Positions 8,337 through 53,735 of a stretch of DNA of 64,000 bases are shown here, in pieces; the first letter of the stretch is position 1, and every line of letters starts with the position of its first letter. Both the position numbers and the translations under genes were made by a program. The notes under the pieces were generated by a model. That model was given only the letters and a program-made list of their open reading frames with translations. It did no database searches and was not told the DNA's origin. The stretch comes from Blastobasis lacticolella (Eukaryota; Arthropoda; Insecta; Lepidoptera; Blastobasidae). The stretch is from assembly GCA_905147135.1 (NCBI GenBank), contig LR990039.1, positions 32,547,708-32,611,707 on the forward strand. Direction: 5' to 3'.

Positions 8337-10500
8337 TTGTGGGGAGGAGGGTTAATAACCCAGAAAAGCCTAAAACTATTTTCTTCCTTGAAAGTTGTAC
8401 TTTTTTCATATAAAGGCTTAAATAAAGTGTATACCAGAAAAAAAAATAGTCACCTCTGGAAACCCTGGAAAATGAGCTCCCATATATGGGTCGGTCGGCA
8501 TAACCAGTCCTATTTACTTCAATGCTTTCAACAATATGTGGGATTATAAATAAAACCCATTTTATTGAAAAATATATATTAATTTAAGTTTTTTATAGTG
8601 TTACTTTTATGAAAATTTTATGCAGTATGGTAATAAAAAAACATTATTTGGGATGTAGGTAAATATGAGTTACACTTCACGCAAATATAATTGCAGCTTT
8701 TTTTACATATTTTGCATTTTAGTATCTTACCAACATAGTTTATTAGATGACCTCATTTATCGTATCTTGAATCTTCAAGGTGTCTTTTTGGTGCAGGACA
8801 AGGCCCACGTTTTTCACACCGTCTATGAGTTTCTAATAAAGCTCTTTTCGTGTAAAAGAGGGGTAGATGTGAAATAATTATCAAAGAAAATATGAAAAAC
8901 AATGTTGGGGTACATCGTTTGAAGACTATTTGCATACTGTAATATGACACTACCACCTAGCCCAAATTTCTTGTAAATATATGGTAGTTGTGCCGACTGA
9001 CCTTGGTAAGGGTCAAACCAAATTATGTAACCTAGGCGAGTAGTCCCGACCCAATATTTACATCCCCATTGGATCGGCTTACCCCTGATGAACTGCTTAC
9101 AACTGTGACCGCCGTAATAAGGAATCAAGCCTCGTCGACACTATGCATCTCTTCAACAGGTGCATATTCTTGGAAAATAGCATTTAGTAAACAAAATAAA
9201 GGCCACATTTTAGCGAATTTATCACTTTGGATCTGAATCAATGAGTTGTCACAACAATGTAAATGGTTCATAATATATGTAAATCTATCACGAGATAGAG
9301 ATCAATTCACAATCAGACGAGTTTTCCCAATACATACGACGTCTTGGTAAGGATACATACCCACTATAAAGTAGTATTCCAATGAAGCATTTCATTTCAC
9401 TGTGAGTTACATTGCCTGATTTATTTTTCTGTGAAGCGTACAGATTCGTATATTCCACGAGCAAATTTATAACAGTGTCGTTGAATAATTGCTCACAATA
9501 CTTTACTAAAGAACGTAACTCGTTTTTGGGACCTTCTAAAGGTTGGAAACTAGGGAACTCATTTGATCTGTGTCGATTCCTCCATTCATAATTTTTATTT
9601 TGTACAGATGTAGGGCGAATAATATCTTCCAGACTTGTAGATGAAGTTGACCTTGGCTGTTGAATCAACTGTTCAGGATCTCCTAGACGGGTAGATGGCC
9701 TTGGCTGTTCAATGAGTGGTCTCTTTTCTATTCGGGCCAAAGGAATGTCATCTTCACTCTCCGATTCACAACTAGTCCAATTGCCATAATTAGCTTCTGC
9801 AGGTGCACCTAACAAAAGAACCTGATAAGTTGTGTATGGTGATATTATTCTCTTGTCCAGAATCCTAATCAGTAACAGCAGCATTCGCGTTATCTGGTGG
9901 TTCGAATGTGATATATTCTGGGACCGGATCATTACTATTCTCTAACGCGTTCAAAATTTTGTGTAGCAATAACGGCTTTGATCTGAAATAACAAAAACAA
10001 GTTTATTTACTCAACAGTTCCAAAGTACTGACTGTGGTTGTGCCGACGCGCCCATGTATGGGTTCATGGACTTTCCGGCTAAAAAAATCGTATAGAAATG
10101 AAAATTATTACAATTTTAATTGCAATATGAATTCTAAAATGTTCCGTATGTTTCGTTGTTACTTCTATATTTTTGGCGTAATAACGATAAAGTGTTATAA
10201 ACTTACCTTTTAGAGGACATGTAACAATTTCCAATTCACTCTTTTTCACTTGCAAAAAACAACTAAAAGTAATCAACTGACTACGTTACTACAATTAACA
10301 GGTTATCGGCTAAAGTTTCTAAAAAACATGTGTAACTTGCATAAAATAAATGAAATAATGAGGGTGGAATTTTTTTATTTCTCATAACCCATGTATGGGT
10401 CGGTAGGTTCATTTGGGGGCGAAAGTGACTGAATCTGGACCGGAAAGGCGCAACGATGAAATCCCTAAAAACATTGAAATTCAGCTTAAGACCAATCACA
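8337..10500 (-). mobile_element. piggyBac-like element region with subterminal CCCATRTATGGG sites
   Basis: The transposase relic at 8690-9932 lies between copies of the palindrome CCCATATATGGG / CCCATGTATGGG: 8479-8490 on one side, 10051-10062 and 10388-10399 on the other. The 8479 and 10388 sites are each followed by TCGGT, and the 10051 copy is preceded by a related GCCGAC. Such subterminal repeats are plausible transposase binding sites. Exact TTAA-flanked ends were not identified, so the boundaries are approximate. Confidence 0.45.
8690..9932 (-). pseudogene. piggyBac-like transposase relic
   Basis: piggyBac enzymes cut and paste at TTAA using a DDD/D RNase-H fold. The N-terminal part (9288-9932, 214 codons) has an acidic, Pro-rich leader and then the domain start (MKCFIGILLYSGYVSLPRRR). 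A second frame carries RFTYIMNHLHCC and SVDEA. A third (8823-9128) has IPYYGGHSCKQFIRGKP and FDNYFTS, which hold the regions of the first two catalytic Asp residues. Frames change near 9290, 9130 and 8820. The sequence stops after the second Asp, so the last catalytic Asp and the C-terminal Cys-rich domain are missing. Dead copy. Confidence 0.8.
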
Positions 10501-14764: not shown

Positions 14765-15720
14765 ATGCTGGCGAGATTAATTGTTCCACGTATTCTTCGT
14801 TCTCTTAATATCACTCTTTCCGTGATAACGTGGTTTGACTCATAGCTTCGTGGTCGCTTGCAGCGGGTTCGTTCCGACGAGGTTTTCTCGGAATGGTGTG
14901 GTATAGCCGCAGGTGTACCGCAAGGTGGAGTTCTGTCCCCTCTCCTTTTCTTGATTTTTATCAACACGGTTACCTCTGTCATTCTCTCCAAGTACCATCT
15001 CTATGCTGACTTGCAAGTTTACAGCCATTTTAAAATCACTGACATCGATGATGCTTTTAGTTGTATTAACGATGACTTAAAGCGCATTTGTTTATGGGCC
15101 AAGTCTTATGGTCTGTTGGTAAACCCGAAGAAGTCTCAGGTTATGCTTATAGGTAGCCCGTATATGTGTCAGCGGCTTGGGTCTGACACGGTTATCCCCC
15201 AAATTTGTTACGATGGAATCTCCATTCCACTCAGCAAAACAGCAAAAAACCTAGGTTTAATTTTAGAGCCCAATTTGTCCTGGGTGTCTCAGGTCAATGA
15301 GGTCAGTAAGAAGATGCATTTTTCGTTTCACTCTATCAAACATCTCCAAAGTTTTCTGCCATTGAAAACTAAAATCTCTCTTTCTCAAACTCTTCTTCTT
15401 CCTCTTCTAGACTATGCAGACTGTTGCTATCTGAATGCCACTGAGGAGCTTTTAGGTAAGCTAGAACGACTTCAAAACATATGCATACGCTTTATTTTTG
15501 GCTTACGCAAGTACGACCATGTCTCAAGATATCGATCCCAACTCAAGTGGCTCCCAATTCGACTACGTAGGAATGCTCACATCCTTTCCACTCTTCTTAT
15601 TCTATCACGTAGTGTCCTCACCGCATAAGCAGAGTGGTCCGCATTTCCACGCATTTATTTCACAAAATTCACTTCCATACATAAACGCTGTTACCAGCAC
15701 CACACCATTATGAATAGCCA
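14765..15720 (+). pseudogene. CR1/Jockey-like non-LTR RT (copy A), 5' truncated
   Basis: The main open frame (14858-15628) covers the central and C-terminal parts of a reverse transcriptase: AGVPQGGVLSPLLFLIFIN, then YHLYADLQVYSH, where the catalytic YADD has become YAD-L, then GLLVNPKKSQVMLIGSP, the thumb and the terminal LKWLPIRLRRNAHILS. Upstream residues to about 14765 continue the domain but include a stop at 14849. The fingers, endonuclease and ORF1 are missing, so the copy is 5' truncated as is usual for LINE insertions. The same family occurs, longer, at 41.4-45.9 kb. Confidence 0.85.
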
Positions 15721-21608: not shown

Positions 21609-23484
21609 TTATAACGTGTTGCTTTGATTTTTTAACAGTTCTTTCACTTTACTTTTTTCTTGCCTTTCCTTTGCTCTTTGTTCTTTTTCCCTTACCTTTA
21701 GTTCCTTTTCAGCTTCTATTATTTTACACCTTCTGTAGACATCGTCATTTGTTATTAATTCAGCACCTGCAGCTACCTTTCGCCTTTTCACTTTCGTTGG
21801 AGTTCCACCCTTTACTTATTTAAGAAGTAGTTCTTCAAATGAAACTATGCGGTTTTCAATAATTTTTACTTTTGAATTGCAAATTTTTTGTAAATTCCAT
21901 GTTGATGCAATATTGGATTTGTTTTTTAGTGATATATCATGATACTTAGTAACTGGTATATAATTTAGAAGCGAAATATGGGGCACATTATTAGCCATAG
22001 TTGTAAGTTTGTTTATCAATAAATGGTTTTCTTCGCGGTGCACATTGTGAGTTTGCTGCAATGCTTTGTTGATGCTCACTAAAACCGTTTGTTGTAGAAG
22101 TTCGGGCTGATTATTTACAAGTTTAAAAAGTTAATTCCGTTGCTGGAAGACAAAGTTAAGGGTATTATCATTATGACATTCATTAGGGCTTGATTCGTGG
22201 CATGCTGTGTCGTCTTGATAATTTTTTCTGAAAAGAGCCGAGTAATAAATTTCGTCAGTCTCAGTGGTTTTTGATTTCCACGCTTGCAACAGGATCTGAC
22301 TAAATTTTTCTTCTGGAACTGCATTTTTGTTTAGGGGATAAATGCCGGCTTTTCTGAATCCTGCCGAGCATACACTGGATTCCACTGCAGTCCATATTTG
22401 GCCTATTATCTTAGCGAAATCTTTTTTTGGTAGGACTTTGCCTACATTCACTCTTTGCCATTTTACTAAGGCAGCATCCCATTTGTCTTTGAATGACTTA
22501 TTTACACATAGATCTAATGGTTGAAGTACATCACTTGTATGTGGTGGTATCTTAAGAATGGTAATTCCAGCCGCACGAGTTTTCTCTATTATATTAATAC
22601 CAACATAAGTACTATGGCCGTCATATATTAATAAAATGGGCCGAATTTGGCCAACGGTTGGTAAAAAAACTTTATCAAAAAAGTTTCGAATACTGGGGAT
22701 TCCATCCAACCGTTGGAAGTGGCCGCATATACTGTCCCCGGATAGGCATCTTGTGACGTCCACTCATCCCAGACGTTCTTGCCTTTATATATGATGAGAG
22801 GAGGCAGTTTTTCTCCTTGTGCGTTGCATCCTGAGAGGACAGTTGTATTGTCCTTCCCAGGTGACGAAATTGTACGTGTTGACGTGAAGCCTTTGCGACC
22901 CACAACCTTCGACTTACTGGGATCCTTGCTAAAACTGGTTTCATCTAAGTTATACATGTGGGAAGGTTTATCATGAAAATCTAATTCGTTGATAGTATTC
23001 TCCAGTAAGTCGAAGTATGGATATATAATATCAGGTCTACATGCATTTTTTCTGGCGTATTCTACAGGCTGGGGTTTTTTGACTGATAGCCCATGTCTTT
23101 TTTTAAACCCCAAAAACCAGTCTTCACCTGGCACACCATCCTTAAATGGGTTAGCAATACAATTTTCGTTGACGTATTCACCAACAATTTCTAGGATTTC
23201 CTTTCTTGTTAGCCCAAACCCATATTAAATTTTTCAATAATATGAAGATTTTTAGCCAATGATTCCTCTACTTCAAGTGATAAAATAGTATTCCTGCCTA
23301 AGGTATTAGATTTTAAACCTCTACGTTCATAAATGCGGTTAACGATGGTAGACCGTGGAATAGCATAATGCTTGGAAGCAGTATAAGCAGACATTCTTCC
23401 ACTTTTAACTGCTTGTAATGCATCTTGTAATTTTTCGGTAGAATAAGCTGCCTTATTAGTTCTACGTATGTAGTTCCTAGGCAT
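21609..23484 (-). pseudogene. pogo/Tigger-like transposase (element 2)
   Basis: The order matches jerky/Tigger-like transposases. The N-terminal psq helix-turn-helix is at 23209-23484 (KLQDALQAVKSGRMSAYTAS). A CENPB-like region includes PGEDWFLGFKKRHGL. The DDE core has YNLDETSF (first Asp), LIYDGHSTYV (second) and PPHTSDVLQPLDLCVNKSFK (third). A basic coiled tail follows (EKELKVREKEQRAKERQEK). Frame breaks lie near 23210, 22660, 22131 and 21816. All three catalytic Asp residues remain, so decay is by frameshift and not by loss of the active site. The terminal repeats are at 21266 and 24591. Confidence 0.85.
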
Positions 23485-42239: not shown

Positions 42240-43975
42240 TCAGTTGAAGGTATCCTTTTTTAAGTTCCCAAACAACTTTAATGTTGTACACATCAATTCC
42301 CAGAGCATTTCTGGCCATTATTCAGATTTACTGGCATCCTTTAGTAGCAGTCCTGTGGAGGCTGTGCTTATCTCAGAATCATTCTTGAAGCCGTCTCTCC
42401 CTTCTTCTCAATTCTCACTTCCCGGCTTCACACTCATTCTCAATGACCGTACGGGCAAGGCAGGCGGTGGCGTCGCAATATACCTACGCGACGATATTCT
42501 GTACACAATTGTCAGCACATCACCAACCCTGTACTCGGGTTCAGCTGAACATATCTTTATTGAGGTAACACTCAATCATAAAAAAAGTTTTGCTTGCCGT
42601 GTTATATAGCCCAAATCTACACATAGCTACATTGATTATTTTGCTTCTCTTAACAATCTACTATGTAGCTTATGACGACGTTTTATTACTTGGGGGTTTT
42701 AACACGTGCTTTCTTAAAAACGATTCACGATCTCGTAAACAGTCTCTCTTGTCTCTTGTCTCAGTCAACCTGCATATTCTTCCACTCACTGCCACGCATC
42801 ATTCCCCAAATTGTATCCCCTCTCTTCTTGATCTAATGATCACATCCTCTCCTAATAAAATAGCCGTCCATGGTCAATTCGATGCCCCTTTTTCTTACCA
42901 TGACTTAGTTTTCCTGTCTTTTAAAATTCGGACTCCCAAACGTAAACCTCGGTTTGCCTTTTTACGTAGTTTTGGGCGTATCGCGATGCAGCAAATATCG
43001 ATTGGAAATCTGTCCTTGTTGCTGACCACATTGATGTGAAGGTACAAGAGCTTGAATCACGAATCATTAAGCTCTACGATACACATGCTCCACTTAAAAG
43101 AGTCCGATTAAAACAAACACCTGCACCGTGGATTACCGAGGACATCAAGGCTGTGATGATTAGGCGTAATTGTGCCAAGCGACGTTTCGGTAAGTATCCT
43201 TCGGACCAAAACCATGAAAGGTACAAGAATCTCAGAAACTATTGCAGTCGTCTGTGTAGAGATGCTAGGAGACGCCACATCCAAAACTCTGTTAATGGCT
43301 CAGCTCCTGCAAAAGATTGGTCTTTCCTTAGGTCATTAGGTGTGGGGAAATCCACAGTAACCTGTGAGGGTTCTATTGATTTAAATCAACTAAATACCCA
43401 CTTCTCTTCACCACCTGTCATTCTGGACTCTAACATTAAAGCTCAAACCATAGCCCAGATCAATAGTTACCCACTCCCTCTTTGTATCTCATTCTGTTTC
43501 ACGCCTGTTTCGGAGGAGGATGTTAAGAAGCACATTCTTGCTATCTCTTCTACTGCTGTGGGTAATGATAACCTTTGTCCACGCATGATTTCCTTCCTCC
43601 TTCCTGAACTCCTACCTGTTCTCACACATATTTTTAACCAGTCGCTGGTAACGAGTTCTTTCCCGTCAGCTTGGAAACTTGCTAACGTTGTCCCCCTTCC
43701 TAAAACATCCAAACCCGCTTCCTTTTCTGATTTTCGTCCCATATCACTATTACCATTCCTCTCAAAGGTCCTAGAGCACATTATCCACAGTCAGCTCACG
43801 CAGTACCTGTCATCAAACTGTCTACTTTCTCCTTTCCAATCTGGTTCCAAGTACCGTAACAGCACTGCTAAAAGACACTGATGATATCCGCTTTGCGATG
43901 GAAAATAAGTCTCTTACCATTCTTGATTTTAGCAGTGCCTTCAATTCTGTAGACTTTGATGTTCTTCTTGCTATT
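42240..43975 (+). pseudogene. LINE copy B ORF2: endonuclease and RT N-terminus
   Basis: The endonuclease part (42088-42609) reads FNVVHINSQSISGHYSDLLA, VLISESFLKPSLPSSQFSLP, and GFTLILNDRTGKAGGGVAIY; its invariant N, E and D/H positions are partly kept. After frame changes the 281-codon frame 43036-43881 covers the linker and RT fingers: FPSAWKLANVVPLPKTSKPA, FSDFRPISLLPFLSKVLEHI. A shifted frame gives LTILDFSSAFNSVDFDVLLA, the palm with its first catalytic Asp, directly before the insertion at 43976. Confidence 0.8.
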
Positions 43976-45258
43976 ACTATACACATAAAAAAACCAGTAA
44001 CCAAAAAGTGAAACACTATAGCTACAAAATTAATCTATGCTTTTTTCTCATAGTATTTAATAATGTCTAAAAGAGTCCTGTGGAAGTGCATGGAGATCGG
44101 GTTGTCCAACAAAGTCTCATTTGTTTTCTTACAGAAGTCTAATATGTTATAATTGGCAGAGAGATTGCCCTTCCTCCAGGAAAAGATTACTAGGAAAAGT
44201 TTCCTCAGGCTCGCGAAATATCCCTCATCTCGACTATTTCCTATCATTGCAAACATGAGTCCCTCCACGTATCTCTCAATGAACCATTGACTGTGAGACT
44301 CAAAGAACTTTTTGGTGTAGGCCACCATGTTGCAATCCTGCGATATCCCAGGATTTTCAATGGTCATACAACCCAAAAGGTTAATGGGCATGAACATGGC
44401 ATTGTACGCGAACATGTTGTAACAGCTGTCTTCCTTCATAATAGAATTTTGTCGTATAACATATAAATGCTCCCTAGCTTGATATACTATGCATGCCTTT
44501 AGATATGTGCAAAAGTCAATAGATATCTCAGAGATCTTCAATCTCTCAACTGTAAGAAAATTTATCCTATCAGTCGGTGATCTCGCGTGATTGGGGCCTT
44601 TTATTAATATTCCCGAGATGACCCTTTTGTAATCACTAGGAGATTCATCGATGTTGCCCCTCTCCTGCAATGATGCTACTATGGGAAACACCGCGATGTT
44701 GGACCTACTTTTATTTGTGTTTGTGACCTTCTGGCCGAATGCCCCCCCCAACCTAGAGTACATGTTTGTGAGTCTAGAGCCAAGTAGAGCTGCATTGGTA
44801 GATAAAAAGACTGAGAAGAGGTCAGATACCATGGGCTCGACCAACTCTGCCATTGGGTGCCTATCTGTAGGGGGATTTTCAGTTAAATCTTTGTGTGGTA
44901 TGAACGGTAAATAGGGTGATTTTTCTGCCAATGCGATAGTAATCTCTTCGTACCAGGGAGGATAGCACGTCTTTCGTATTCCACTGAATTCCTTTTGTAC
45001 CATATTTTCAGGGTTCTTATTGAATATCTTCCCCTTTCTATTTATTCCTAATGCCTTGCTTATATTTTCAATTTTTTGTGTCATTCTACATCCTTCATAG
45101 AGATCAAACACATTCTTATTAGATTCCATCCATGTTTCTATTATGTTATCTAGTAATTCTGTGTTTAACGAAGAGTTTTCTCTATTTGTTACATTTATCT
45201 CAACCTTTACTCCCCAGTCAATATCTTCTTTCATTTTGCTTACAAACAAGTCTACCAT
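43976..45258 (-). CDS. Endogenous virus-like ORF (407 codons), possible negative-strand RNA virus polymerase fragment
   Basis: The open frame at 44035-45258 has no stop across 95% of a 1282-bp insertion in the RT of LINE copy B. TATT occurs at both junctions (43972-43975 and 45258-45261). The first base of the ATG comes from the flank, so the apparent start is fortuitous and the piece is probably internal to a longer protein. Features include SRLGGAFGQK, ILIKGPNHARSPTDR and EGYFASLRKLFLVIFSWRKG. The overall style resembles the region before the palm of bunyavirus-type L proteins; this is recognition by pattern and not certain, and no polymerase catalytic motif is inside the piece. No introns or poly(A) are seen. 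The intact frame among decayed elements implies recent capture or selection. Confidence 0.5.
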
Positions 45259-45261
45259 ATT

Positions 45262-45845
45262 CTTCGCTCTCTTAACATATCTCCTTCTGTGGTAGCATGG
45301 TTCGCTTCGTATCTACGCGGTCGCCTGCAGCGGGTCCGCTCTGATGAGGTCTTCTCGGATTGGCGTGATCTCGTTGCGGGTGTGCCGCAGGGTGGCGTTC
45401 TTTCACCTCTCCAATTCTTAATTTTAATTAACACGGGTTACCTCAGTCATTTCTTCCAATTTACATCTCTATGCAGACGACTTGCAGGTTTACCACCACT
45501 TTAAAATTACAGACATTGAAGATGCTTTTGCCTGCATTAATAATGATTTGCAGCGTATCTGCCTGGGCTGAATCGTTTGGCTTGCTTGTAAACCCCAAAA
45601 AGTCTCAGGCTCTTCTCATCGGAAGCCCGTATATGTGTAGGCAGCTTGGTAATGTCACTGGTGTCCCGCAAATTACATCCCTAGGTCTTGACCCTACACC
45701 TCAACCAACGCCCCAACTTCTGATACAGTTTTTTTTGCTGATTCGATCACCGCGGGCCCACTCACAGTCTCTGCAGCGAGCGGCACAAAGTCGTATGCTG
45801 GCCCCAAGAGTATTTGCCCTGTTTGAGGCTAGCCGCCAGTAGCGT
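45262..45845 (+). pseudogene. LINE copy B RT, C-terminal part after the insertion
   Basis: The RT resumes in register with SVVAWFASYLRGRLQRVRSD and AGVPQGGVLSPLQFLILIN. The YADD region is shifted (LCRRLAGL in this frame, YADDLQVYHH in another), then ESFGLLVNPKKSQALLIGSP follows. Sequence likeness ends near 45700, where unrelated DNA begins. The gap between 43975 and 45262 corresponds to no loss of RT codons, so the foreign piece inserted cleanly. Confidence 0.8.
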
Positions 45846-46019
45846 AACTAGAGCTGTACCTGCGGTGCCCAGGTTGTACAGATCCTGTAGAAGCGCAGAT
45901 CAGGACCAAGTTTTGGATCATGCATTGTACTCAGTAGCAAACAACACAACATTTTTATCGCAAGTACGAGTCTAGTGTAGACACGCGGTGTAGTCAGGCG
46001 CGGATTGATCCATTGTCAC

Positions 46020-46690
46020 CTCAGCTTTTAAAACCCAAAATATCAAAGATTTCGATTTCGAATTCATAGGTTACAGTTACTTTCCAATAAGTTCGTTGCG
46101 GTCGTTTATTCATTGTTTTTCCTAAGTTGCTTTTGTAAAGATCATCCCTTTTCTGTTAAGACCCAAAATGTCAAAAATTACGAGCTCGCTCCGCTCGCTT
46201 ATTCATTTTATGATCGCCTCAGGCTTTTATTACCCATAATATCCAGAATTTCGAGCTCGCTCCGCTCACTCATTCATTCATTGATCGCACCAACTTTTTC
46301 GACCCAAGATGTCAAAAATATCGAGCTTGCTTCGCTCGCTCATTCATATGTTTCAGATACTTTTCTTATCATTAGACTAGCTCATTAATTTCACTTATTC
46401 ATTGATTTCCCTTAAATTACTATTGTAAGGATCACTTACTGCTGTTAAGACAAAAAATGGCCAAAATTGCGAACTCGCTCCGCTCGCTCATTCATCCAAT
46501 GATCACCTCAGCTTTTAAGAACCATAATGTCATAAATTTCGAGCTCGCTCCGCTCGCTCACACATTCGTTGTTGTCCACCACGTTTTAAGACCCAAAATT
46601 TCCGAGCTCACTTCGCTTGCTCATTACATTTTTGATCATTCCACTAAAAGGCCAAATTATTTTTTAACTCAGGGCGCTCATCATATTATT
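46020..46690. repeat. Tandem array, ~70-bp unit with GAGCTCGCTCCGCTCGCT
   Basis: The core occurs at 46181, 46252, 46322, 46471, 46541 and about 46604, each followed by CATTCAT and preceded by ACCCAAAATGTCAAAAAT-like sequence. Spacing is 71, 70, 149, 70 and 63 bp. A longer stretch (46100-46170) recurs at 46395-46465, which shows higher-order duplication. Single copies of the core, in inverted orientation, are at 63503 and near 63662. Confidence 0.75.
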
Positions 46691-53364: not shown

Positions 53365-53727
53365 TTAATGTCTTGCGCTCCACAGCCTGTGTACAAGCGC
53401 CTCCCTCGTACCGTCTGGAACCTCCTCTGCGTCAAGGCTGTCACGGAGGCTTCGGTGCGGTTGGCCACTGTCAGCATCATACTGCGTCTCGGGAAAGGAA
53501 ATATTTAACTCATTGGCGATGTTGTGCAGGACAACACATGCATTCACTATTCTCCCAGCAGTTTCAGATGGATAGTGAACCACTCTATGTGCCAACAAAC
53601 AACGCCAACGTGCCTTCAATACCCCTATGCACCGCTCCACAGTATTCCTGACGCGACAGTCAAGATCTGTGTAGAACTCCTCAGATGATCCTGGAGCCGC
53701 ACCCAATATTGGAGTCATCAGCGACGA

Positions 53728-53735
<8 letters not shown>
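53365..53735 (-). pseudogene. Harbinger transposase (copy 4), C-terminal exon
   Basis: The minus strand reads [60 protein letters not shown] and VVLHNIANEL. It covers the end of the HARBI1-like catalytic domain ('TPxL.P...YN..HxxxRxxVERxxGxLKxRFRCL') with its last catalytic region. The frame is open to a natural-looking stop at 53365. Upstream it runs straight into the (TA)n palindrome at 53.73 kb, so the central exon carrying the first two Asp residues has been lost. Confidence 0.8.

Follow-up and report, generated by a model that had tools for sequence, protein, structure and literature searches.

An open C-terminal frame of an orthomyxovirus PA gene inside a LINE of the moth Blastobasis lacticolella, with further PA captures on a probable Z chromosome

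Orthomyxovirus insertions are already known in arthropods. The excerpts of the literature on which this comparison draws report orthomyxovirus-derived insertions, including quaranjavirus-like ones, in ticks, insects and a dipluran (PMC10675110, PMC4384744, PMC6955108, PMC9963324); among these are quaranjavirus RdRp elements in the Lepidoptera Bombyx mori and Melitaea cinxia (PMC4384744) and orthomyxovirus-like sequences in beetle genomic data (PMC9963324). Insect orthomyxovirus relatives integrated in a beetle genome are described for the firefly (PMC6191289), and seven elements are described in Campodea augens, all of them PB1 and all with incomplete frames carrying stops and/or frameshifts (PMC6938034). 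The OKIAV orthomyxo-related viruses are presented as sequences from insect transcriptomes (PMC6932829), whereas the copy analyzed here, found in a window of 64,000 nucleotides of the B. lacticolella genome, is a fragment integrated in genomic DNA. This insert belongs to the same kind as the arthropod insertions above. As the available text describes for C. augens, several orthomyxovirus polymerase-subunit captures occur in one hexapod genome; unlike the PB1 elements of that species, however, they include the PA gene, and the copy in the window is open (PMC6938034). The excerpted accounts of the tick, insect and dipluran elements (the four sources first cited) concern RdRp/PB1 and nucleoprotein homologues, whereas the window element is PA, and the surveyed excerpts on orthomyxovirus elements name no PA element for arthropods, which is no proof of absence. 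What sets this case apart is that the captured gene is PA, that its C-terminal frame is open and the empty site clean, and that the captures concentrate on one chromosome, probably the Z.

The original prediction for this window was a virus-like ORF from a segmented negative-strand virus, taken to be the pre-palm region of a bunya-type L protein. The viral, segmented and negative-strand parts of that prediction stood, but the source gene had to be replaced by PA on the evidence of Pfam, named relatives and Foldseek. The profile search proposed as a check did find viral similarity: Flu_PA (PF00603) was the sole Pfam family matching the ORF up to E = 10, with a score of 23.6 bits that lies barely above the curated cut-off of 23. 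With phmmer the ORF matched insect PA at 1e-78, and PDB sequences weakly (best E 0.32). All ten named relatives were called PA; nine of the names say orthomyxo and the remaining one is Old quarry swamp virus. The PA of Lepidopteran orthomyxo-related virus OKIAV1731 aligned as a homologue along the entire ORF (44% identity over 99%) and fell in the same tree group, and that of the firefly virus PpyrOMLV2, whose host is a beetle, was 42% identical over 90%. The tree was built from 18 of the 26 PA relatives plus two captures, after short or distant sequences had been dropped (P0008, P0019-P0022 and P0024-P0026).

A first structure model, based on nine sequences, was poor (pLDDT 44); the alignment was deepened afterwards to 24 of the 26 relatives, with P0025 and P0026 left out. 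The 50 Foldseek matches listed were all influenza or thogotovirus polymerase entries, and the fold is that of the PA C-terminal domain. The structure comparison proposed as a check likewise pointed to viral polymerases; the listed entries were orthomyxovirus polymerases and not L proteins. In the alignment the ORF begins at the counterpart of about residue 303-306 of influenza PA and runs nearly to the PA C-terminus. What is missing is the N-terminal portion, which in influenza numbering corresponds to the endonuclease part; the frame is a fragment and not a whole PA. Of 60 columns with at least 90% conservation among the relatives, the insert keeps 59; each of the 24 relatives keeps 86-100% of them. 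In a collection of 5.8 billion proteins, the best match listed was 51% identical over 55% of the length, or 63% over 34% in a second search; the matches listed held no protein close to the ORF and no conserved orthologue, and a scan of viral contigs for its relatives found nothing. We conclude that the insert is an endogenous element of a segmented negative-strand RNA virus and that its source is orthomyxovirus PA. In bunyavirus L, the part that precedes the palm is described as resembling PA-C, and the earlier pre-palm guess was close in this one sense. Despite this structural kinship, it is extremely improbable that the insert is a piece of a bunyavirus-type L protein: a bunya-type source was rejected on the Flu_PA-only Pfam result, the PA names of all ten named relatives, the Foldseek matches, the alignment to influenza PA and the position of the frame end. 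No bunyavirus family was found in Pfam up to E = 10, within the limits of the HMMER filters.

The insert lies antisense to the surrounding, degenerate LINE, and its extent of 1,282 bp between two TATT copies, as first proposed, was confirmed to the base (Table 1). The opposite-strand frame of 407 codons was likewise recovered. It is part of a stop-free run of 425 codons, the longest in the window; in 20 sequences simulated from a first-order Markov model of the window, the longest run reached 127-189 codons. The ATG occupies positions 45258-45256 and takes one base from the TATT on the right, which means that the junction itself created the start codon; codon 9 is the next Met in frame. Joining the LINE from position 43975 to position 45262 yielded DFDVLLAILRSLNISP and restored the LINE reading, bearing out the claim that the reverse transcriptase breaks off and resumes in register with no codon lost. 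We compared the join with LINE proteins, using 120 listed of the 194 found: among 57 alignments, 45 spanned the site, and 43 of these were gap-free near the join. Among the 120 listed relatives, all that carry an organism name were from butterflies or moths except for one named as an archaeal assembly, which is likely a mislabel; by this comparison too a lepidopteran host is very likely. A second copy of the LINE is present in the window, and the neighbouring LINE frames are indeed broken up, as had been noted for the other long coding regions nearby. With virus-derived sequence flanked by host LINE on both sides, a TATT duplication and a clean empty site, the insert has the features of a non-retroviral endogenous RNA-virus element. 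The exact 4-bp duplication with no LINE base lost, the internal position on a 35.4-Mb contig and the other captures in the genome, several of them decayed, make it hardly credible that the assembler created a chimera by joining exogenous viral cDNA to the LINE.

Table 1. Coordinates of the insert, its flanks and the other captures (positions in the window unless a contig is given)
Feature	Position	Strand	Basis or remark
Left TATT copy of target-site duplication	43972-43975	.	Sequence and junction analysis
Right TATT copy	45258-45261	.	First base completes the ATG of the ORF
Endogenous orthomyxovirus PA insert	43976-45257	-	mRNA sense is the minus strand; Pfam, phmmer, Foldseek, junction analysis
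407-codon open frame, PA C-terminal part	44035-45258	-	ORF list, Pfam, alignment, simulations
Insert end resembling viral segment terminus (8/12 bases; suggestive only)	43976-43987	+	Comparison with other PA insertions
LINE reverse transcriptase, left of insert, ends ...DVLLAI	43880-43975	+	Protein comparison, junction analysis
LINE reverse transcriptase, right of insert, starts LRSLNISPSVV	45262-45674	+	75% identical to copy at 14795-15205
L002/L014 PA capture	G000:C30:30968212-30970416		Open for 751 codons, cut off near C-terminus, viral terminus before ATG
Tandem array of decayed PA capture	G000:C30:31106065-31148392		At least 7 terminus-bearing copies, frameshifts or stops
PA capture, broken	C30:34.73 Mb		Variant of terminus precedes ATG
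L009/L015 PB1 capture	G000:C30:22221909-22222847		Open for 546 codons, SSDD motif; single PB1 match, C30:22.22 Mb

It is highly probable that the insert represents the unbroken C-terminal 407 residues of orthomyxovirus PA, likely as a copy of viral PA-segment RNA that a host reverse transcriptase made and that was joined into a LINE already present. The target duplication, a first end that falls within the gene and a second close to a segment terminus would together point to reverse transcription followed by joining at a staggered cut. Because the low-coordinate end of the insert resembles the terminus seen at three other PA insertions, the template may have been genomic or antigenomic RNA without poly(A), copied from its extreme end before truncation inside PA. 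Compared with the viral terminus, the 12 bases at the start of the insert agree at 8 positions, a score reached by 0.4% of window positions; with the variant terminus they agree at 7 of 12 (2.1% of window positions). At the level of sequence, this hints at copying of genomic or antigenomic RNA from its end. A search of the window for the viral terminus, allowing up to 3 mismatches, gave no match, as expected from the truncation of the insert on that side. LINEs are the usual suspects for such captures, and LINE-driven capture is plausible here. Of the L1-type retrocopy features, the insert shows a target duplication (TATT, 4 bp) but no poly(A), since no A run was found at the junction corresponding to its mRNA 3′ end. 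The usual L1 target duplication is longer than 4 bp, and a 4-bp duplication without poly(A) is not a textbook LINE signature. The ends of the insert are also informative on whether poly(A) mRNA or genome/antigenome is the viral RNA that gets copied into DNA.

A search of the moth's own genome with the ORF protein, which scores the best candidates only, gave 22 matches, 19 on the contig that carries the window (C30) and three on a second contig (C8). They define PA loci at 30.97 Mb, at 31.117-31.148 Mb (the array), at the window insert and at 34.73 Mb on C30, and at 3.61 and 10.82 Mb on C8. The 17-base terminus that precedes the ATG was found at eight sites genome-wide, one at 30.97 Mb and the other seven at 31.106-31.146 Mb, whereas its reversed control did not occur; the array therefore contains at least seven terminus-bearing copies. 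Two of them, at 31.106 and 31.111 Mb, went unmatched in the PA search, in which only the best candidates were scored. Five array copies that were compared are about 95-99% alike. Because the fragment at C8:3.61 Mb (L016) matches the array at 96.4% identity over 415 bases, likely independent PA captures number about five, four of them on C30 within 3.8 Mb. Under uniform placement, the binomial probability of four out of five falling on C30 is 6.8e-5, for a grouping made after the data had been seen. These loci record the infection of the lepidopteran germ line by influenza-family viruses, with separate captures of one polymerase gene in varied states of decay. The PB1 locus contained no match to the viral terminus, and searches of the genome for PB2 (PF00604, one PB2 domain) and NP (PF00506) gave no match; the controls were equally silent, and these results therefore do not show absence.

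Identity between the capture at 30.97 Mb (L002) and the array is about 70-73%; the two have in common a segment start just before the ATG and are unlike outside it. No target duplication was seen by eye at L002. The fixed differences between L002 and the array are distributed as 110/55/332 over codon positions 1/2/3, which, as far as sequence comparison goes, would fit separate captures of related viruses whose divergence took place under protein constraint, in virus or host. In its best stretch the window insert reaches 66% identity with L002, and in the tree it lies about as far from L002 as from the other members of its group. That all the PA loci of C30 descend from one old capture through genomic duplication is very unlikely: the four loci do lie within 3.8 Mb, the array is itself a genomic duplication and its relative on C8 is nearly identical to it, but the moderate identity of L002 and the array, their common segment start within unlike surroundings, the concentration of their differences at third positions, as expected in a working virus gene, and the distance of the window insert from L002 all speak for separate captures.

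The contig that carries these captures stands out of size order, with 35.4 Mb after a fall from 26.6 to 10.9 Mb across the sampled C1-C29, and the five sampled later measure 16-23 kb. All three genome matches to triosephosphate isomerase (TIM) are on C30. As Tpi is Z-linked in Lepidoptera, C30 is probably the Z chromosome, and the PA cluster on it makes testable whether some chromosome regions collect RNA-virus copies.

Under neutrality, the frame would survive with a probability of 0.5 up to 0.003-0.014 substitutions per site and of 0.05 up to 0.013-0.061, depending on the assumed indel rate. For CpG, the observed/expected ratio of the insert (0.51) is about half that of the window (1.01). 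Frame survival, conserved residues and CpG show that the insert is young or constrained. A young and functionless insert is most likely, because no close orthologue was found in the protein collection and most of the sister loci are decayed; two other captures that remain open (751 and 546 codons) speak a little against it. Youth without an established function would account for the open frame as well as for the nearly full complement of conserved residues. The sign of youth is intactness, however, and purifying selection would give the same pattern in the sequence. We therefore weighed the reading in which selection has kept the PA-C frame, either because the host makes an endonuclease-less fragment that would sequester PB1 and so hold back related viruses or because the locus would feed antiviral piRNAs. 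The intact frame and its conserved residues, the two open captures, the four out of five likely independent PA captures on one chromosome, the retention of the C-terminal domain and the protein-constrained divergence between L002 and the array, in virus or host, are all in its favour. The junction-made start codon and the lack of a close protein among the matches listed count against it, as do the segregating sites of the array, which are spread nearly evenly over codon positions (10/9/13 in about 600 columns each, only 32 sites in all) and, on these few sites, give no sign of protein constraint after duplication. On balance we regard maintenance by selection as unlikely. If expressed, PA-C without the endonuclease is predicted to bind PB1 and to act at most as a decoy, and the open frame makes testable whether endogenous polymerase fragments act in this way. 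The bolder combination, in which the distal Z serves as a hotspot for the capture of orthomyxovirus PA and the window frame has been domesticated as a decoy, binding incoming viral PB1 and stalling assembly of the polymerase, is a long shot.

The window also contains, just downstream of the LINE, a degenerate tandem repeat with a 71-bp unit (46156-46347), with related pieces at about 46004-46637, as well as DNA-transposon transposase fragments at 9288-9932, 22131-22763 and 53365-53730 (Pfam DDE_Tnp_1_7, DDE_1 and DDE_Tnp_4).
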